DNA from: Leuctra nigra
Taxonomy: Eukaryota; Arthropoda; Insecta; Plecoptera; Leuctridae
Assembly (NCBI GenBank): GCA_934045905.1
Contig: OW203763.1
Location: 48,398,121 to 48,462,120, forward strand
Reading direction: 5' to 3'
Length of the DNA stretch: 64,000 nucleotides
The notes under the pieces were generated by a model. That model did not search any database. It saw nothing but the letters and a program-made list of their open reading frames with translations, and was not told the origin of the DNA. This document shows, piece by piece, positions 35,006 through 64,000 of the stretch. Position 1 is the first letter of the stretch. Each line of letters begins with the position of its first letter. Made by a program: the position numbers and the translations under genes.

Positions 35006-36907
35006 ATGTTTGATCACTCAACATTGAAAGAAAAGATCAGGAAAATACAAACGGAATTAGATCAAGAAAAAAAGAAAGTTAAAAGTAAATTCTTAGAGGG
35101 TATGTTTAATGAAAATGATGTAAATAAAAGTTGGAGGAACATGTACCACTACATCAATACGCAAAAGAAGGGGGGGGGGGGGGGGGGGGACGGACGACTT
35201 ACCAACACTAATCAGTGAAAACGGAACACTCCATAGCGTAAGTGCAGAAAAGGCGGGGGCCCTTAATACATTTTATGAGAGAGTGTTTCAAAAGGAAGAA
35301 GAGAATGGGGAGGGGGAAGGGGGGGAAGGCGAAGAAGATAATTTACAAGTTAACGAAGGAAAAGAAAAAAATTTATATATCGAACGTAGCTATTCAGGAT
35401 TGTATTAGAAAGTTAAAAAATAACAAAGCACCTGGCATGGACGGAATTTCAAACAACTTCATAAAAATTGCACCAAAGGAAATTTCATTTTATTTAACTA
35501 TTATTTTTCAAAATTCAATCGATACGGGCATAGTTGTATTAGAATGGAAGAAAGCAATCATTATACCAATTCATAAGGGTGGGGAAAGGGCAAAATTATC
35601 CAACTATAGACCAGTTAGCCTAACATCAGCTGTCTGCAAGATATTAGAAAGATTAATTGATACCGAAATTAAAATCATAATTGAAAAAAGGGGGGGTTTA
35701 TTTAGAGGACAGCATGGATTTCGAAAGGGACACTCATGCACTACACAATTACAGGGGTTTGTGCAGGAGTTGTCGGACCCTTTGGACAGGGGGGAGAAAA
35801 TAGCTGCAATTTTTCTGGATTTCGAAAAAGCATTTGATAAAGTTCCACATAAACAACTAATAGTCAAATTACAGAATGTTATTCAAAATACAACTATCAC
35901 AAAATGGGTTCAAAATTTCTTAAGCAATAGAATACAAAAAGTAAAGGTCGGAAGTGAGTACTCAGACTACATAAGAGTAACATCTGGGGTACCACAAGGA
36001 AGTGTACTGGGACCACTGTTATTTAACATTTTCATCAACAACCTGGCACAAGGCATCACATCAAAAATCCGTCTATTTGCCGATGATTGTGTAGTATACA
36101 AAACTATAAATGGCAAAGACGATGAGGAGACGCTACAACAGGATCTACATTTAATAAATACATTGGTTGAAACAAATTTAATGGGGCTGAACGTGAATAA
36201 ATGTAAAGTAGTAAATTTCACCAGGAAAAATAGAAGAGAAGACCTTAATACAGAATTTTACCTGGGAGGAAACATACTAGAGGAGGTAGATGCCTACAAA
36301 TATCTTGGAATACACATACACAAGAATCTAGGGTGGGGAGAACATATTAAAAAACTTACTAACAAGGGAATAAAAGCTCTAAATTTTGTAATGAGACAAC
36401 TAAATGATACTGGGGTTCACATTAAAGAAAAAGCATACAAAAGTTTAATACGTCCGATGATTGAGTACGCTGGTTCAGTCTGGGATCCATACAATGAGAA
36501 TTTAATCAAAGAAGTAGAGGGGGTGCAGAGATTAGCGGCGAGAAGGGTTTTCAGAGTTGAAAGAAATGAGCAGGGGATAGTTGAAAAATTAAGAGAACGG
36601 CCCAGCGAGATGGTAGAGGAATTAGGATGGAAAAATTTAGGGGAGAGAAGGAAAAATGAAAGACTGATGAACTTCTTTAGGGTAAGGAATGGGTGGACAG
36701 GATGGGAGGAACTGGGGGAAAGGGTGGGGAGAGGTGTTCAGAGAAGTGTTCGAAGAGGGTGAGAAATAACTGTAGAAGGATCAAAGACCGACATAGGAAA
36801 ATACAGCTTCATAAGAAGAACAATTAAAGACTGGAACAGTTTAAGTGAGGAAGCGAAACGAGCTGAAGAACTTTTGGAATATAAAAGGATGATAGTGAAA
36901 AAGTGAA
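35006..36907 (+). pseudogene. LINE ORF2, reverse transcriptase, frameshifted
   Basis: The longest open piece, 35242-36762 (506 codons), holds the reverse transcriptase: KAPGMDGI near residue 65, IPIHKGG and NYRPVSL, FLDFEKAFDKV, SGVPQGSVLGPLLF, and the catalytic FADD (about residue 278), then AYKYLGI and the thumb region. Its beginning is read in two other frames: 35006-35170, ending in a run of about 20 G, and 35190-35400, which holds a SENGTLHS..AEKAGALN stretch typical before the RT. The expected C-terminus with DWNSL lies in another frame at about 36770-36907. Three frame changes, two at homopolymers, mean it is inactive or that the assembly has errors at those runs. The family is that of Jockey/CR1-like LINEs; exact clade not resolved. 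Confidence 0.85.
35169..35189. repeat. Homopolymer G tract
   Basis: About 20 G within the LINE coding region, at a frame change. Confidence 0.9.
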
Positions 36908-41510: not shown

Positions 41511-41735
41511 AGATTATTAGCTCACGGTCTTGTGGTGTTGAGGACTGACATCCGCATGTCTACTTGCGGCCTCAACTTCTTTAGAGCATGAGGCTGGAAG
41601 CTCATTTGATTATGTACGTGCTTGCAGCTTGGGGAGAAGTGGCGGTTGCAACCGTGGCTGATATAGCTCTTCCTCACTTTCACGCTCTCAAGAGGCAATG
41701 CTGGCAAGGTCCTTCCCATCGTAATCACCTCCCTG

Positions 41736-42280
41736 TAAAGCTCACGTGTATATCCCTGTAAAGCTCACGTGTATATCCCTGTAAAGCTCACATGTATATC
41801 CCTGTAAAGCTCACGTGTATATCGCTGTAAAGCTCACATGTATATACCTGTAAAGCTCAAGTGTATATCCCTGTAAAGCTCACGTGTATATCGCTGTAAA
41901 GCTCACATGTATATCCCTGTAAAGCTCACATGTATATCCCTGTAAAGCTCACGTGTATATCCCTGTAAAGCTCACGTGTATATCGCTGTAAAGCTCACAT
42001 GTATATCCCTGTAAAGCTCACATGTATATCCCTGTAAAGCTCACGTGTATATCGCTGTAAAGCTCACATGTATATACCTGTAAAGCTCAAGTGTATATCC
42101 CTGTAAAGCTCAAGTGTATATCCCTGTAAAGCTCACATGTATATACCTGTAAAGCTCACGTGTATATCGCTGTAAAGCTCACATGTATATACCTGTAAAG
42201 CTCAAGTGTATATCCCTGTAAAGCTCACATGTATATCCCTGTAAAGCTCACGTGTATATCCCTGTAATGCTCAAGTGTAT
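41736..42280. repeat. 23-bp satellite, left array
   Basis: About 24 units of CCTGTAAAGCTCACGTGTAT plus three bases. Units carry CACGTG, CACATG or CAAGTG at the same position. The array stops abruptly at 42280 where element D begins and resumes at 46043. Confidence 0.95.
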
Positions 42281-43329: not shown

Positions 43330-44179
43330 AGATTGGCATAATGAAAAAAACTGATGAAAAAACTGAAACTGATTCTGTGGAATTTGCTGAAAAAATTAGA
43401 AATGTACGTCTGGATCCATGGGACAGATTGTTTAGTTTGGACGTAATTAACATCTATCCTAGAATTAGTTGAAGTATTTCTGAATAAGCAACGAGTTACA
43501 GAAGAAGAAGATCAAATTTCGATCAAGACTACAATGAAAATGTTGTAAACGAGTCTCGAATCTAATTATTTTCAGTTTCAAGATCATTTCTATCAACAAA
43601 AAAACTGGTTTAGCGATGGGTAGCTGTCTATCTAGTATTATGAGTGATGTATACATGGCAGACATCGAAGAAGAAATCATGAATGGAACGGGAATAAAAC
43701 CGAAGTTATGGATGAGATTTGTGGACGACCTTTTCATAGTGTGGAATGAGGGCAACGAAAATGCATTACAATTTCTGGATTACGTCAACAGTCTTAGGCC
43801 AACTATAAAGTTCACGATGGAAGAAGAGGACAATGGAAGTATTTCGTGTTTAGACTTTAAAGTAATCAGGAACTTGGACAAAATTGACACAGAACAGAAG
43901 TTTACAGAAAACCCACCCATACAAATCAGTATATTCATTTCTCATCTAATCACCATAATATGTTTAAAGAAATGTTTGATCAATAGGGCTAATACGCATA
44001 GTTCAGATGAGAGAAAAATATTAGTTGAAATAGCGTATTTACGAGAAATATTTGAAATGAACGGATATCCTAGAAGATTTGTAGACCGAGTATTATCAAG
44101 GAATACACGATCCATACAAGAAGAGGAACCAATCAATACCATATCGTTACAATACATTCCGAAGCTTCAGATGAGATAA
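43330..44179 (+). pseudogene. Penelope-type reverse transcriptase remnant
   Basis: The frame 43616-44179 contains MGSCLSSIMSDVYM (the motif usually read as MGSPLSP in the family), then WMRFVDDLFIVW with the catalytic FVDD near residue 38, and FLDYVNSL..TIKFTMEEE. Motif A (FSLDVINIYPRIS) lies upstream near 43425-43470 in another frame, and a one-base slip at the A run near 43600 separates the two. A further frame change near 43895 moves the YRKPTHT-type segment out of frame. The enzyme would copy element RNA by target-primed reverse transcription; here it is inactive. Confidence 0.85.
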
Positions 44180-44244
44180 GAAGAATACTTGGTAAATTTA
44201 ACATCAGGACTACATTTAATTCCGGTAGAACCCTAAAGAGTCAA

Positions 44245-44661
44245 TTGATGAATGTCAAACCTTTGAATATCTTACAAGAGGATAAGGGATGGGTCTACAA
44301 TTTAGATCAGTGTTCGAGCGTTTACATAGGTGAAACGAAACGGCCAGTATCGGTTAGGATTAAAGAACATAAATCCAATTTGAACAATAGAAGACGCAAT
44401 CCCATGGATAATCAAGTAAACTCATTATTAGCAGATCACGCAATGGAACTGCACCATGGTATAGAATGGCAAAAGGCGGGAAAGGTGTGGAAAGAAGAAC
44501 GATGGGGGAAGAGGAAATTTAAGGAGGCAGCTACAATGGCGGTATTAAGAAAAGAAAATATTGAAGTAATAAGTCAACCAAGTTATGAATTCAACAACAT
44601 TTGGAGAGACACTGTACAAGATCAAGTAAGAAAAAGATGGCAGAATCTGAAGAAGTGTTAA
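44245..44661 (+). pseudogene. GIY-YIG endonuclease domain of the Penelope-like element
   Basis: The 138-codon frame has VYIGETKRPVSVRIKEHK near residues 27-44, the YIG half of a GIY-YIG nuclease with the conserved arginine and EH. The first half of the signature is replaced by YNLDQCSS, in place of the usual cysteine-containing Y.C.C form. A conserved DHA..HHGIEW block follows near residues 64-78. It lies directly after the reverse transcriptase, as in Penelope-like elements, where it would nick target DNA. It is separated from the RT by a stop near 44179. Confidence 0.8.
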
Positions 44662-46042: not shown

Positions 46043-46948
46043 ATATACCTGTAAAGCTCACGTGTATATCCCTGTAAAGCTCACGTGTATATCCCTGTAA
46101 AGCTCACGTGTATATCCCTGTAAAGCTCACGTGTATATCCCTGTAAAGCTCACGTGTATATACCTGTAAAGCTCACGAGATATCCCTGTAAAGCTCACGT
46201 GTATATACCTGTAAAGCTCACGTGTATATCCCTGTAAAGCTCACGTGTATATCCCTGTAAAGCTCACGTGTATATCCCTGTAAAGCTCACGTGTATATAC
46301 CTGTAAAACTCACGAGATATCCCTGTAAAGCTCACGTGTATATACCTGTAAAGCTCACGTGTATATACCTGTAAAGCTCACGTGTATATACCTGTAAAGC
46401 TCACGTGTATATCCCTGTAAAGCTCACGTGTATATCCCTGTAAAGCTCACGTGTATATCCCTGTAAAGCTCACGTGTATATACCTGTAAAGCTCACGTGT
46501 ATATCCCTGTAAAGCTCACATGTATATCCCTGTAAAGCTCACGTGTATATCCCTGTAAAGCTCACGTGTATATACCTGTAAAGCTCACGTGTATATACCT
46601 GTAAAGCTCACGTGTATATCCCTGTAAAGCTCACGTGTATATACCTGTAAAGCTCACGTGTATATCCCTGTAAAGCTCACGTGTATATCCCTGTAAAGCT
46701 CACGTGTATATCCCTGTAAAGCTCACGTGTATATACCTGTAAAGCTCACGTGTATATCCCTGTAAAGCTCACGTGTATATACCTGTAAAGCTCACGTGTA
46801 TATCCCTGTAAAGCTCACGTGTATATACCTGTAAAGCTCACGTGTATATCCCTGTAAAGCTCACGTGTATATCCCTGTAAAGCTCACGTGTATATCCCTG
46901 TAAAGCTCACGTGTATATCCCTGTAAAGCTCACGTGTATATCCCTGTG
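46043..46948. repeat. 23-bp satellite, right array
   Basis: About 39 units with a 23-bp period and alternating ...TATATCC and ...TATATAC junctions; two units are shortened (CACGAGATATCC). Almost all units keep CACGTG. It ends about 400 bp beyond the ABCG stop codon. Confidence 0.95.
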
Positions 46949-47350: not shown

Positions 47351-47698
47351 CTATCTGACTGATCGCAGTTTCCACCTTAGCATACCATAAGCTAAGATTC
47401 TAAATATGAAGAATATAACCAGTAGTGCGATGACATCATTCCAGAACTGATCCCCACTCATGGCGATCTCATGCAGGAACTTGGTGGGGTATTTGTAGTG
47501 GCAGTATTTGCCCTCCGCGCAGTGCAGCGTCTCTCTGTCGTGTCCGTAGATGGCGCCCACATAGCCCTCCAGTCCGTAGCGCAGGTAGCTGACCGTGGTG
47601 CACCAGCGCAAGTACACCGGCAAGTCCCGCAGAGTCACGCCGAAACCAGCGAACATCATCACCGGGATGGACAGAGTGGGGCCTAGGAATGTGCCGTT
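47351..47698 (-). CDS. ABCG-family ABC transporter, last exon
   Basis: Acceptor TTTGCAG at 47705-47699, then 115 codons and TAG. The product starts NGTFLGPTLSIPVMMFAGFGV, the segment after transmembrane helix 5 in ABCG half-transporters, followed by the reentrant region (DLPVYLRW...SYLRYGLEG), an extracellular loop with the two cysteines of HCAEGKYC, and a last membrane helix (residues about 92-108, VIALLVIFFIFRILAYG), finishing with WKLRSVR. It joins in phase 0 with the exon 50209-50364. The family moves lipids or pigments across membranes as dimers; which subtype cannot be told from this half. A 138-bp tandem copy of its start lies just upstream. Confidence 0.93.
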   Translation of the reverse strand, partial: NGTFLGPTLSIPVMMFAGFGVTLRDLPVYLRWCTTVSYLRYGLEGYVGAIYGHDRETLHCAEGKYCHYKYPTKFLHEIAMSGDQFWNDVIALLVIFFIFRILAYGMLRWKLRSVR

Positions 47699-47880
47699 CT
47701 GCAAATACAATATTCATGTTCAGGCTCCACTTCTGGATTACACCGGCAAGTACACCGGCAAGTCCCGCAGAGTCACGCCGAAACCAGCGAACATCATCAC
47801 CGGGATGGACAGAGTGGGGCCCAGGAATGTGCCGTTCTGCAAATACAATATTCATGTTCAGGCTCCACTAGTGGATTAAC
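47699..47880 (-). repeat. Tandem duplicate of the last-exon acceptor region
   Basis: The segment from 47612 to about 47740 recurs 138 bp higher, with GTGCCGTTCT at 47691 and at 47829. The copy contains the acceptor and the first about 85 bp of the exon, then runs back into intron sequence. Using the duplicate acceptor would add intron sequence in the message. Confidence 0.85.
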
Positions 47881-50208: not shown

Positions 50209-50364
50209 AACAACGTTGAACACTGCTCCTATCATCAGACCCACAGACTGGGCGACGAAGACGACTAGCAGAGATATCACGAAGAACATCGAGAATCTGG
50301 ACCATTCCATCGGCTGATCACTCATGAGGTAGATGATGATGGAGAAGAGCATGGTTCCCAGCGT
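50209..50364 (-). CDS. ABCG-family transporter, internal exon
   Basis: Minus-strand exon of 52 codons between an acceptor (GTGTTTAG) and a GTAAGTAT donor, phase 0 at both ends. It encodes two membrane segments: TLGTMLFSIIIYLMS and, after the short loop DQPMEWSRF, FFVISLLVVFVAQSVGLMIGAVF. The latter includes the SVG..IGA pattern that ABCG proteins have in helix 5. The exon joins in frame with 51176-51276 upstream and 47351-47698 downstream. Confidence 0.92.
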
Positions 50365-51175: not shown

Positions 51176-51276
51176 TGAAATCGGGATGTCGATTAACGTA
51201 ACTGTCAAGTAATACGCTTTCAGAGAGTACCAGCGATTGAAATGTTCCTTTTGTAAAATCGAAAGCTCAGCAGGAA
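51176..51276 (-). CDS. ABCG-family transporter, internal exon
   Basis: Minus-strand exon from an acceptor (CTTTTTCAG) to a GTAAGTAA donor. The first two bases complete a codon begun by the exon 56307-56477, restoring the family phrase T.LTFPAE. The 33 codons that follow read ILQKEHFNRWYSLKAYYL then TLIDIPIS, matching the REH-N-WYSL-AYY region between helices 2 and 3 of ABCG transporters. It ends in phase 0. About 5 kb of intron full of Helitron-like and hAT sequence separates it from the preceding exon. Confidence 0.92.
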
Positions 51277-56306: not shown

Positions 56307-56477
56307 ACATGTGAGTATTGTGAGCATCATGTTTGTGAACATGTGGTGCATGAGGATGGAGAAGAGCAGATTGTAGTTGTCCAGTACTCGATCACCTTCG
56401 TTCCCTGCTCGGATGTAGAGAACACCCAGCATAATGCCAACCAACACGTTGGACAGAGTGCGTAGATGTGTCATTGT
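56307..56477 (-). CDS. ABCG-family transporter, exon with first two membrane helices
   Basis: Minus-strand exon of 171 bp from acceptor TTTCTAG to a GTAAGT donor at 56306-56301. It encodes TMTHLRTLSNVLVGIMLGVL, the end of the linker and membrane helix 1, then YIRAGNEGDRVLDNYNL and helix 2, LLFSILMHHMFTNMMLTILT. This matches the start of the membrane domain in ABCG half-transporters. The last base starts a codon finished by exon 51176-51276. Its acceptor and first about 90 bases are repeated in the tandem array that begins immediately to the right. The nucleotide-binding domain exons should lie right of the window. Confidence 0.93.
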
Positions 56478-59400
56478 CTAGAAATACGAGAACACACAAT
56501 AGGGATGTCAGAACACCATCACCTTCGTTCCCTGCTCGGATGTAGAGAACACCCAGCATAATGCCAACCAACACGTTGGACAGAGTGCGTAGATGTGTCA
56601 TTGTCTAGAAATACGAGAACACACTATAGGGATGTCAGAACACCATCACCTTCGTTCCCTGCTCGGATGTAGAGAACACCCAGCATAATGCCAACCAACA
56701 CGTTGGACAGAGTGCGTAGATGTGTCATTGTCTAGAAATACGAAAACACACAATAGGGATGTCAGAACACCATCACCTTCGTTCCCTGCTCGGATGTAGA
56801 GAACACCCAGCATAATGCCAACCAACACGTTGGACAGAGTGCGTAGATGTGTCATTGTCTAGAAATACGAGAACACACTATAGGGATGTCAGAACACCAT
56901 CACCTTCGTTCCCTGCTCGGATGTAGAGAACACCCAGCATAATGCCAACCAACACGTTGGACAGAGTGCGTAGATGTGTCATTGTCTAGAAATACGAGAA
57001 CACACTATAGGGATGTCAGAACACCATCACATTCGTTCCCTGCTCGGATGTAGAGAACACCCAGCATAATGCCAACCAACACGTTGGACAGAGTGCGTAG
57101 ATGTGTCATTGTCTAGAAATACGAGAACACACTATAGGGATGTCAGAACACCATCACCTTCGTTCCCTGCTCGGATGTAGAGAACACCCAGCATAATGCC
57201 AACCAACACGTTGGACAGAGAGCGTAGATGTGTCATTGTCTAGAAATACGAGAACACACTATAGGGATGTCAGAACACCATCACCTTCGTTCCCTGCTCG
57301 GATGTAGAGAACACTCAGCATAATGCCAACCAACACGTTGGACAGAGTGCGTAGATGTGTCATTGTCTAGAAATACGAGAACACACTATAGGGATGTCAG
57401 AACACCATCACCTTCGTTCCCTGCTCGGATGTAGAGAACACCCAGCATAATGCCAACCAACACGTTGGACAGAGTGCGTAGATGTGTCATTGTCTAGAAA
57501 TACGAGAACACACTATAGGGATGTCAGAACACCATCACCTTCGTTCCCTGCTCGGATGTAGAGAACACCCAGCATAATGCCAACCAACACGTTGGACAGA
57601 GTGCGTAGATGTGTCATTGTCTAGAAATACGAGAACACACTATAAGGATGTCAGAACACCATCACCTTCGTTCCCTGCTCGGATGTAGAGAACACCCAGC
57701 AAAATGCCAACCAACACGTTGGACAGAGTGCGTAGATGTGTCATTGTCTAGAAATACGAGAACACACTATAGGGATGTCAGAACACCATCACATTCGTTC
57801 CCTGCTCGGATGTAGAGAACACCCAGCATTATGCCAACCAACACGTTGGACAGAGTGCGTAGATGTGTCATTGTCTAGAAATACGAGAACACACTATAGG
57901 GATGTCAGAACACCATCACATTCGTTCCCTGCTCGGATGTAGAGAACACCCAGCATTATGCCAACCAACACGTTGGACAGAGTGCGTAGATGTGTCATTG
58001 TCTAGAAATACGAGAACACACTATAAGGATGTCAGAACACCATCACCTTCGTTCCCTGCTCGGATGTAGAGAACACCCAGCATAATGCCAACCAACACGT
58101 TGGACAGAGTGCGTAGATGTGTCATTGTCTAGAAATACGAGAACACACAATAGGGATGTCAGAACACCATCACCTTCGTTCCCTGCTCGGATGTAGAGAA
58201 CACCCAGCATAATGCCAACCAACACGTTGGACAGAGTGCGTAGATGTGTCATTGTCTAGAAATACGAGAACACACTATAGGGATGTCAGAACACCATCAC
58301 CTTCGTTCCCTGCTCGGATGTAGAGAACACCCAGCATAATGCCAACCAACACGTTGGACAGAGTGCGTAGATGTGTCATTGTCTAGAAATACGAGAACAC
58401 ACTATAGGGATGTCAGAACACCATCACATTCGTTCCCTGCTCGGATGTAGAGAACACCCAGCATAATGCCAACCAACACGTTGGACAGAGTGCGTAGATG
58501 TGTCATTGTCTAGAAATACGAGAACACACTATAGGGATGTCAGAACACCATCACCTTCGTTCCCTGCTCGGATGTAGAGAACACCCAGCATAATGCCAAC
58601 CAACACGTTGGACAGAGTGCGTAGATGTGTCATTGTCTAGAAATACGAGAACACACTATAGGATGTCAGAACACCATCACCTTCGTTCCCTGCTCGGATG
58701 TAGAGAACACCCAGCATTATGCCAACCAACACGTTGGACAGAGTGCGTAGATGTGTCATTGTCTAGAAATACGAGAACACACTATAAGGATGTCAGAACA
58801 CCATCACCTTCGTTCCCTGCTCGGATGTAGAGAACACCCAGCATAATGCCAACCAACACGTTGGACAGAGTGCGTAGATGTGTCATTGTCTAGAAATACG
58901 AGAACACACTATAGGGATGTCAGAACACCATCACATTCGTTCCCTGCTCGGATGTAGAGAACACCCAGCATTATGCCAACCAACACGTTGGACAGAGTGC
59001 GTAGATGTGTCATTGTCTAGAAATACGAGAACACACTATAGGGATGTCAGAACACCATCACCTTCGTTCCCTGCTCGGATGTAGAGAACACCCAGCATAA
59101 TGCCAACCAACACGTTGGACAGAGTGCGTAGATGTGTCATTGTCTAGAAATACGAGAACACACTATAGGGATGTCAGAACACCATCACCTTCGTTCCCTG
59201 CTCGGATGTAGAGAACACCCAGCATAATGCCAACCAACACGTTGGACAGAGTGCGTAGATGTGTCATTGTCTAGAAATACGAGAACACACTATAGGGATG
59301 TCAGAACACCATCACATTCGTTCCCTGCTCGGATGTAGAGAACACCCAGCATAATGCCAACCAACACGTTGGACAGAGTGCGTAGATGTGTCATTGTCTA

Positions 59401-60615
59401 GAAATACGAGAACACACTATAGGGATGTCAGAACACCATCACCTTCGTTCCCTGCTCGGATGTAGAGAACACCCAGCATAATGCCAACCAACACGTTGGA
59501 CAGAGTGCGTAGATGTGTCATTGTCTAGAAATACGAGAACACACTATAGGGATGTCAGAACACCATCACATTCGTTCCCTGCTCGGATGTAGAGAACACC
59601 CAGCATAATGCCAACCAACACGTTGGACAGAGTGCGTAGATGTGTCATTGTCTAGAAATACGAGAACACACTATAGGGATGTCAGAACACCATCACATTC
59701 GTTCCCTGCTCGGATGTAGAGAACACCCAGCATAATGCCAACCAACACGTTGGACAGAGTGCGTAGATGTGTCATTGTCTAGAAATACCAGAACACACTA
59801 TAGGGATGTCAGAACACCATCACATTCGTTCCCTGCTCGGATGTAGAGAACACCCAGCATAATGCCAACCAACACGTTGGACAGAGTGCGTAGATGTGTC
59901 ATTGTCTAGAAATACGAGAACACACTATAGGGATGTCAGAACACCATCACCTTCGTTCCCTGCTCGGATGTAGAGAACACCCAGCATAATGCCAACCAAC
60001 ACGTTGGACAGAGTGCGTAGATGTGTCATTGTCTAGAAATACGAGAACACACTATAGGGATGTCAGAACACCATCACATTCGTTCCCTGCTCGGATGTAG
60101 AGAACACTCAGCATAATGCCAACCAACACGTTGGACAGAGTGCGTAGATGTGTCATTGTCTAGAAATACGAGAACACACTATAGGGATGTCAGAACACCA
60201 TCACATTCGTTCCCTGCTCGGATGTAGAGAACAACCAGCATTATGCCGACCAACACGTTTGACAGAGTGCGTAGATGTGTCATTGTCTAGAAATACGAGA
60301 ACACACTATAGGGATGTCAGAACACCATCACATTCGTTCCCTGCTCGGATGTAGAGAACACCCAGCATAATGCCAACCAACACGTTGGACAGAGTGCGTA
60401 GATGTGTCATTGTCTAGAAATACGAGAACACACTATAGGGATGTCAGAACACCATCACATTCGTTCCCTGCTCGGATGTAGAGAACACCCAGCATAATGC
60501 CAACCAACACGTTGGACAGAGTGCGTAGATGTGTCATTGTCTAGAAATACGAGAACACACTATAGGGATGTCAGAACACCATCACATTCGTTCCCTGCTC
60601 GGATGTAGAGAACAC
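56388..60615 (-). repeat. 127-bp tandem array of an ABCG intron-exon junction, 33 acceptors
   Basis: Each unit has 36-37 bp of the intron end, the TTTCTAG acceptor and about 90 bp of the exon start. Acceptors lie at 56478 and then every 127 bp up to 60541; the distance 4063 is 32 x 127 minus 1, the missing base being in the unit near 58661. Units differ only at a few sites (CACCTTCG/CACATTCG, CATAATG/CATTATG, CTATAGG/CAATAGG/CTATAAGG). No unit but the first has the rest of the exon or a donor. Confidence 0.97.
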
Positions 60616-60697
60616 CAGTGTATGATTCGTAAGAAGTGAGAGAGTGGACTGTATCTAGTTTTGGAATATAATAGGTTTTCTTGACAGTAAGTTTACA

Positions 60698-61999: not shown

Positions 62000-62200
62000 A
62001 TATATTAATAATTGAAAAGGACAGAAAATGCAAACATGTAGGTACATTGAAAGTGCAAGACAAGTAACAATCAAGGAATAAAAGCAAGATAAATTATAGA
62101 GAGAAAAAGTAAAATAGAACAAGGAAGCTTAGATCAAAGTTAATAGATCAGAGTTCAAAGAATGCAGATCGGCGCCAACATACCGCTCACCAAATTGAAG
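62000..62200. other. No gene seen
   Basis: Purine-rich spacer between the Helitron-like element and the BEL/Pao remnant. Confidence 0.4.
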
Positions 62201-62209
62201 AAATTAATT

Positions 62210-63999
62210 TTAGAAAAAAAGGGAAAAAATGATCGAGGAAAGAAAACATAAGAACGAAAAAGAGGAAAAGATGGGCTTCTTTCGCAAAAAAGAGGGTGGC
62301 ATGCATCCTCGGGAAGCGATGAAACATATCCTTCCGCCCACTCTGAGGAAGCCGGAGGGGCCCAGAAATGGCTTTGTAATGCCAATCGAGAGGAGACTTG
62401 TCCGCATTGGGCAAGTTGAAGAAACTCTTTAGAGTTATAATGACGTTGAGTGACTTTAATGTAAGGATTGAGAGCATCTTGCAGTTCCGAAGGTAGTAAG
62501 GGACCTGTCGGTACTGGAGCATTAGCGCGCTTGGCCAATAGAATCCGAGCGAATCGAAGAACGTGACCGAAGACGCGTTGAGCTCGGAGGAGGGTTGAAC
62601 ACTTCTGCAAGTCAACGAGTAACGGCTCGATGTCGACGCGGGTAACCAAGGTGACAGCGGCAGTCTTCATCTCGGGAACGTCCATGTTATGTTCACGATT
62701 AGGCGGATACCGGGGCCAGGTAGCAGGATCATTTTGCAGAAAACTGGGACCAACCAGCCACAAAGGATGTTCAATGAGCTGAGTCGGCAACAATCCACGG
62801 GAAGCGCAGTCGGCGGGGTTCTCTTCTGACGCAACATGCGCCCAGTCAGTGGGCGCGGAAGTCTCCAAAATCTCCACCACCCGGTTGGCGACGAAGGTGT
62901 TGAGGCGATGAGGTGAAGTGGAGAGCCAAGCCAGAACAATGCTTAAATCCGTGTAGAGGGCGACATAGTCTATCGTTAGACCATTGAGTGAAGGCAATGT
63001 ATCCTGAAGTAAACGGGCAAGTAATAATGCAGAAGACAATTCAAGTTTAGGAATGGTTAAAGTCTTCACCGGAGCAACTTTACTTCTAGCGCGCAACAAG
63101 CTGACATGAGTTGTAGAAGGAGTTGAAGTACGTAAATACAAAACCGCAGCATAACCTCGTTCCGACGCATCACAAAACCCGACCAAGTGACAGACGCCAC
63201 GAATGTTAGGTAAAGCTCGCGGAATACGAAAGCTTGAGAGAGATGATGCATCAGAAACTGCAGTTGACCAACTTTGAGCTAATTGGTCAGAGAGTGGGTC
63301 GTCCCATTGTACTTGAGAGAGCCACAATTGCTGAACGAATATCTTCATCCAGCAGACAAATGGAGTGAGGAAGCCAAGGGGATCGAAGATTCGTGCGATG
63401 TACGAAAGTGCCGAGCGCTTCGTGACAACGCCGTCGAAGGGCTGTGCGTGGAACGAGAAAGCATCGATCACTGGATCCCACTGCAATCCCAGAATCTTGA
63501 TTCCTTGGTCATCATTGGAGAACACCATGGGAGTTTCCAAATGTTCCGCAGGCACAGTGTTCAAGGCTTCGGGCAGATTGGAAGCCCACTTGCGGAGTTC
63601 AAACCCTCCTTTGGATAGCAGAGTTTGAAGTTGACATTGAAGCTCGTTAGCTTCGGTTATGTCTTCGGCACCGGAGACGATGTCGTCGATATAGGTGTGT
63701 TCTGTCAAAGCGCGAGAAGCGAGGGGAAAACTTACACCTTCATCGTGGCCAATTTGATGGAGAACACGTTAAGCGAGGAAAGCAGAAGGAGTAAGTCCAT
63801 AAGTGACAGTGTTCAATTCATATTCCATCACTGGAGATGTGGGTGTTGGTCGCCAAAAGATGTGTTGAAACTGTCGATCAGCAGGATGTACTTGAATTTG
63901 CCTATACATCTGTCGAACGTCAGCACATATGGCGATGGAATGAGTACGAAAAGTTATGAGAATCCCAGGAAGATCACGCTGAAGTTTTGGACCACACAT
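62210..63999 (-). pseudogene. BEL/Pao LTR retrotransposon pol, broken
   Basis: Read from the right edge leftwards: the frame 63999-63772 has the first half of the reverse transcriptase (GPKLQRDL, ADVRQMYRQI, YELNTVTYGLTPSAFLA). A TAA at 63769-63771 interrupts it, and the same frame resumes with YIDDI at about 63695, the catalytic tract of BEL/Pao RT. Then come ILGLQWDP, FDPLGFLTP, the RNase H domain with CDASERGYAAVLY and PKLELSSALLLARL, and the tether region ending in ENPADCASRG. Near 62407 the frame changes: the integrase-proximal stretch FLRVGGRI lies in another frame. The rest of integrase, LTRs and gag are absent from the window. It is a retrotransposon remnant, inactive. Confidence 0.92.
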
Positions 64000-64000
64000 G

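Follow-up and report, generated by a model that had tools for sequence, protein, structure and literature searches.

How could a gene keep its message correct when an exon start, together with its splice acceptor, stands in the preceding intron in dozens of near-identical copies, and is such a locus a single oddity or one case of a class? These questions are raised by a 64,000-nt stretch of the genome of the stonefly Leuctra nigra (here called the window), where a transporter gene on the minus strand carries such an array before its exon 8.

The ABCG1/4-like gene and its exon 8 array

The gene was mapped after adding 120 kb upstream of the window, with homologues placed by tblastn and exon limits taken from homology and splice consensus. 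Its 11 exons lie between 95175 and 47351 (minus strand, coordinates continued beyond 64000), with GT-AG limits in 10/10 introns and a joined coding sequence of 683 codons having a single stop at its end. Pfam assigns ABC_tran followed by ABC2_membrane to the protein, its best solved structures are those of ABCG1, and its named homologues are ABCG4 or ABCG1. By domain order and nearest relatives, the transporter is a member of the ABCG1/4 group, in agreement with the ABCG identity given in the initial annotation. The protein shares 70.5% identity over 601 aa with an Anabrus protein and, in a quick tree, is placed with Orthoptera and Blattodea. Four of its exons and the exon 8 array are located in the window as follows:

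47351..47698, minus strand: exon 11, the last, with the stop codon (homology, joined frame)
50209..50364, minus strand: exon 10 (homology, joined frame)
51176..51276, minus strand: exon 9 (homology, joined frame)
56309..56477, minus strand: true exon 8, 169 nt (homology, intact joined frame), with a TTTCTAG acceptor directly upstream and the donor GTAAGT
56391..60616, minus strand: exon 8 acceptor array of a 127-bp unit, with 32 decoy acceptors and the true one (TRF, unit split)

Two minor features of the same gene were also observed. Exon 1 contains an in-frame 27-bp repeat of 5.4 copies (94961-95106 in the continued coordinates, L012 961-1106), which gives the protein, close to its N-terminus, a run of nine-residue repeats resembling EVSPPAITE, and intron 7 has, at 62158-64000, minus-strand frames resembling a BEL/Pao-type retroelement polymerase, as judged by eye from the translation.

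TRF delimits the exon 8 array at 56391-60616, with a period of 127, 33.3 copies, 98% matches and a score of 8207, which bears out the earlier reading of an acceptor and exon start in tandem repeat. The array has 33 TTTCTAG acceptors on the minus strand, including the true one; the count of 32 decoys therefore stands, but not that of 33 copies upstream of the true exon, as this number includes the true acceptor. Only the last acceptor leads into the full exon (56477-56309), as had been stated, and the reading frame of this exon is continuous with those of its neighbours. Split at TTTCTAG, the decoy units measure 127 bp in 31/32 cases and 126 bp in the remaining one, each made up of the first 87 bp or so of the exon and roughly 40 bp from the end of the intron, and at its intron end the array starts mid-exon. 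The near-identity that had been noted is also found among the units, which differ by 1.4% and show no neighbour effect (p 0.27): ten of the 32 are identical to the consensus, seven others deviate at position 82 alone, and scattered variants are present across the array. The exonic variant types in the decoys include three silent and five replacement changes, as expected of untranslated copies. A genome search with 121 bases of the unit, in which the best candidates only were scored and very common words were skipped, placed 34/34 among the matches listed inside this array.

The decoys had been described as identical in sequence to the true site, which holds for TTTCTAG but not for the upstream context: an extra AG is found 19 nt upstream of the acceptor in 30/32 decoys and is absent at the true site and at decoys 20 and 31. 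Being absent at 3/33 sites, its absence at the true acceptor may be due to chance. A CTGAC motif, the putative branch point, precedes the acceptors by 30 nt in 32/33 sites and by 29 nt in the other. Selection preserving the decoy signals was also considered; CTGAC is kept in 32/32 decoy units, but variants are too few to give this much weight.

Splicing to a decoy would lead to an early stop in 32/32 cases, as the initial annotation had claimed. The in-frame stop comes after 35 codons in 28/32 decoys, inside their own unit, after 41 codons in one and after 70 in three, and the cause proposed earlier, that 127 is not a multiple of three, mostly does not apply.

Boundary arrays at other exons and loci

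The initial annotation described the exon 8 array and overlooked three others in this gene, as well as those of a paralogue and of a neighbouring gene. The ABCG gene has four boundary arrays, at exons 2, 5, 8 and 11, three of them acceptor arrays and one a donor array. The exon 5 array, before 80601, contains 23 acceptors, of which 22 are decoys, with units of 105, 104 and 84 bp; TRF splits it and does not join it to the exon, and its two pieces were merged by hand for the enrichment tests. The array of exon 11 is the smallest, with two copies:

47608..47878, minus strand: exon 11 acceptor array of a 138-bp unit (91 bp exonic, 47 bp intronic), with one decoy whose first base is 47836 (TRF and sequence)

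At exon 2, TRF reports a 34-bp unit in 84.8 copies at 88398-91276 (continued coordinates), with 79 donor-pattern sites, corresponding to 78 decoys and the true donor. Intron 2 (2888 nt) consists of this donor array except for 39 nt, and only 71 nt separate the final donor copy, which adjoins a CTAAC motif, from the acceptor. The units of all four arrays have an exon part and an intron part, either exon end can be affected, and the acceptor motif is present in every copy of the acceptor arrays (33/33, 23/23 and 2/2 at exons 8, 5 and 11). The true exon is intact at the end of each array, as seen in the 683-codon joined frame.

The decoys of these arrays have the same predicted consequence as those of exon 8. 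At exon 5, 22/22 would stop after about 10 or 25 codons, the single decoy of exon 11 would stop after 32, and use of any decoy donor of exon 2 would bring a stop in the first codon past the true exon end (78/78), so that all 55 decoy acceptors and 78 decoy donors tested in the ABCG gene lead to early stops.

A genome search with the Anabrus protein gave 74 matches in all, including tandem exon 5 matches in a close ABCG paralogue on another chromosome (C6); the search listed one decoy only of the window gene, and its silence at other loci proves little. The paralogue has three decoy acceptors before exon 5, with a 161-bp unit, and ten before exon 3, with a 149-bp unit and one of 159 bp, and the stretches before its exons 8 and 11 contain no decoy array. 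Its decoys lead to a stop in 13/13 cases, the phase before exon 3 being borrowed from the window gene. As the unit at exon 5 differs between the paralogues (105 and 161 bp), these two arrays probably arose separately. A neighbouring latrophilin-like gene, whose protein has HRM, GAIN, GPS and 7tm_2 above the Pfam cut-offs and two SUEL pieces, one above and one below, carries nine decoy acceptors with an 82-83-bp unit at the exon encoding the weaker SUEL piece; read in frame with the true exon, 9/9 stop after 15 or 20 codons. In total, seven boundary arrays with different units were found at three loci, and they constitute a recurrent class, not a single odd locus.

Near-identical tandem copies are difficult to assemble, and an assembly error, with the animal having one or a few copies, would account for the exon 8 array. 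The Leuctra nigra assembly comes from a male with 32-fold HiFi coverage and a QV of 57.2, and the X is reported as single-copy in the male sequenced (PMC10280035). The window is most likely on this hemizygous X, which removes confusion between haplotypes. Taken with the scattered variants among units and the seven separate arrays with different units at three loci, these data make an assembly error extremely unlikely.

The close C6 paralogue could also take over the role of the window gene, which would then be a decaying pseudogene with the arrays as debris. This is contradicted by the 683-codon open frame, the GT-AG limits of all introns, the identity to the Anabrus protein and the presence of arrays in the paralogue too, and we consider such decay very unlikely.

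Frequency of the arrays and their possible origin

With a score of 150 or more as the threshold, and with the exon 5 array, which TRF reports in two pieces, counted once, the ABCG gene has eight arrays; 4/8 lie across a splice boundary, where random placement of founding units predicts 0.28 (p 4e-5). Leaving out the exon 8 array, 3/7 straddle a boundary against 0.23 expected (p 0.0008), and among arrays with at least four copies, again without exon 8, 2/6 do so against 0.18 expected (p 0.011). The unmerged TRF rows give 3/9 against 0.36 expected for founding units (p 0.005). When whole arrays are placed at random, however, the overlap is ordinary (3/9 TRF rows against 2.5 expected, p 0.49), and all these tests concern one gene, chosen because of an array.

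In comparison, the exon loci of chaperonin (PF00118) had a boundary array in 0/30 cases, 30 having been examined of 57 genome matches. The 184 kb round the ABCG gene contain 19 arrays of at least 4.5 copies, and the 104 kb of loci L021-L051, some of which overlap, contain none. Exons with arrays (7/27, against 0/30 for chaperonin) give a rough Fisher p of 0.003, with 12 latrophilin exons estimated and the genes not randomly chosen. From the density of arrays and this contrast, the class is patchy, and its patchiness is not predicted by plain random minisatellite formation.

Several causes of this distribution were considered. A subtelomeric cause is not supported by the samples: of four 5-kb samples taken close to the C13 and C2 ends, none had an array with a score of 150 or more or one of 4.5 or more copies, and of four further samples on the X, two contained minisatellite arrays (L056, L057), one had a 6-bp repeat only and one had none, the whole sample being small. 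Exons rich in G+C are ruled against as the cause by the equal G+C of the ABCG (0.512) and chaperonin (0.513) exons. The possibility that the intron part of the unit is decayed exon is supported for exon 3 of the C6 paralogue (p 0.002) and unsupported for ABCG exons 5, 8 and 11 and for exon 5 of the C6 paralogue (p 0.26, 0.86, 0.99 and 0.68, respectively).

The excess of founding units at splice boundaries is not explained by pure tolerance. This excess, together with an exon composition that leaves G+C out as the cause, favours a process that targets boundaries, for example one tied to transcription or to spliceosome-bound RNA, as the seed of the arrays in place of chance and tolerance. Against such a process are the ordinary overlap of arrays placed whole, the choice of the gene for having an array and the 0/30 chaperonin loci, and we hold it to be rather unlikely. 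The corresponding general proposal is that tandem duplication in the stonefly starts preferentially at exon-intron boundaries, through a process linked to transcription or splicing, and has repeatedly filled introns of particular genes with tens of identical splice sites; it is accordingly a tentative one, with the odds against it.

Splice-site choice and comparison with known systems

Here it is proposed that the arrays are boundary-spanning minisatellites of the lancelet mirage type, whose presence is probably tolerated since they leave the exon complete and since exon definition gives preference to the closest partner site. The gene contains near-identical tandem copies of a boundary segment, which joins an intron end to an exon start or, at exon 2, an exon end to the opening bases of an intron. 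A complete exon is preserved next to the array, since the copy that abuts the remainder of the exon is whole; the coding frame is thereby unbroken, although partial exon copies, each bearing a splice signal, occupy the intron. The arrays could have arisen by tandem duplication of a boundary segment, followed by amplification and homogenisation of the copies. Where introns are long, exon definition would mostly pair the splice sites closest to each other on the two sides of the true exon, and would so choose the final acceptor where acceptors are repeated and the first donor where donors are. On the evidence of the sequence, the ABCG gene is presumably spliced correctly.

Human data are reported to favour the sites nearest across the exon in long introns, and the same source (PMC9225289, section 9) describes exon definition as merely reducing the preference for the upstream acceptor, so that, as far as this account goes, decoys could be used often. 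The short intron from the last exon 2 donor copy would be tempting and would win under intron definition. Given the merely reduced acceptor preference and the position of that copy at 71 nt from the acceptor, a leak to decoys is to be expected; the resulting transcripts, with their early stops, would be removed by nonsense-mediated decay. The array itself would have no selected role and be close to neutral, with some mis-spliced transcripts as its cost.

The early stops at all decoys of the ABCG gene, and the presence of an exon 5 array in both paralogues, also fit a regulator in which productive splicing and poison splicing, the latter including a stop, compete and array length sets the amount of transporter. 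However, an early stop is expected anyway on reading into non-coding sequence, and the position of the arrays is not conserved, as the exon 5 units differ in length (105 bp in the window gene, 161 bp in the paralogue) and the paralogue lacks an array at exons 8 and 11. Regulation by decoys is therefore considered improbable, and tolerated boundary-spanning minisatellites are the reading retained in the following comparisons.

Mutually exclusive exon clusters of the Dscam type are rows of duplicated exons in one gene. The stonefly copies differ from these in being partial exons that run into intron and a stop, with the last copy alone having a true donor. A mutually exclusive cluster was rejected, since the copies stop in frame and lack the 3' part of the exon, and are thus not complete exons.

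The closest known system is that of the lancelet mirages, described in the globin genes BflGb6 and BflGb9, Adh3, PGBD5 and troponin C as boundary-spanning minisatellites at the start or the end of an exon; RT-PCR there showed regular splicing to be undisturbed (PMC3087553, PMC3902484). The two systems have in common boundary-spanning tandem repeats, splice signals, a whole true exon and near-identical units, and by structure the stonefly arrays can be classed as mirages. Lancelet units are given as 10-160 bp at low copy number (two BflGb6 haplotypes have 3 and 6), whereas in the stonefly acceptors reach 33 copies and donors about 85, with four arrays in one gene. Mirages are also marked by length instability between haplotypes or cells; the stonefly arrays were analysed in a single haplotype. 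The minisatellite of human IFI6 (6-16, G1P3) is cited as having several splice donors used for distinct mRNAs (Turri 1995, cited in PMC4526556), and, on this citation, it shares with stonefly exon 2 a tandem repeat at the exon end with a donor in its units; in contrast to IFI6, use of any decoy donor tested in the stonefly would give an immediate stop (78/78) and no viable message. Minisatellite growth at exon edges is also reported for human segmental duplications, where minisatellites at exon-intron boundaries have on average 30-bp units in four copies, can change splicing and may form new introns, the repeat being often kept in the transcript (PMC2812944). A literature search over titles and the starts of abstracts, with subscription journals outside its coverage, found no insect case of boundary-spanning minisatellites, and none was present in the available part of an insect genome paper (PMC8956072). 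The insect host, the scale, the involvement of both exon ends and the recurrence in paralogues are new.

Most work on how a splice site is chosen uses two or three competitors that differ in strength. With 33 acceptors and about 80 donors that are nearly identical in one gene, position must decide, and exon and intron definition can be tested against each other directly in a gene that occurs in nature. The arrays also extend boundary-spanning minisatellites from lancelets to an insect, suggest overlooked cases elsewhere and offer a source of cryptic exons and new introns. If boundary seeding were true, this genome would be a natural experiment on the choice of the spliceosome among equals and on intron birth.

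Other repeats and elements were observed near the gene. Downstream of the last ABCG exon, a 23-bp unit forms two arrays, at 41730-42280 (24 copies) and 46043-46947 (39 copies), the second beginning about 400 bp after the stop codon, and on the minus strand this unit has a donor-like GTGAGC and an acceptor-like stretch (TTTACAGGG). The largest array in the 184 kb has a 91-bp unit in 53 copies (L020 4320-9153) and contains TTCACAG. On the plus strand, frames judged by eye from the translation resemble a non-LTR reverse transcriptase at 35242-36759 and a Penelope-like element with a GIY-YIG part at 43538-44658. Additionally, ABCG-like matches were found very close to four chromosome ends, at C1 17663-23313, C10 69965-98066, C13 46060-89849 and C4 39979845-39990547 (the position of the C4 end being taken from the published chromosome size), as if a transporter copy had spread between ends.
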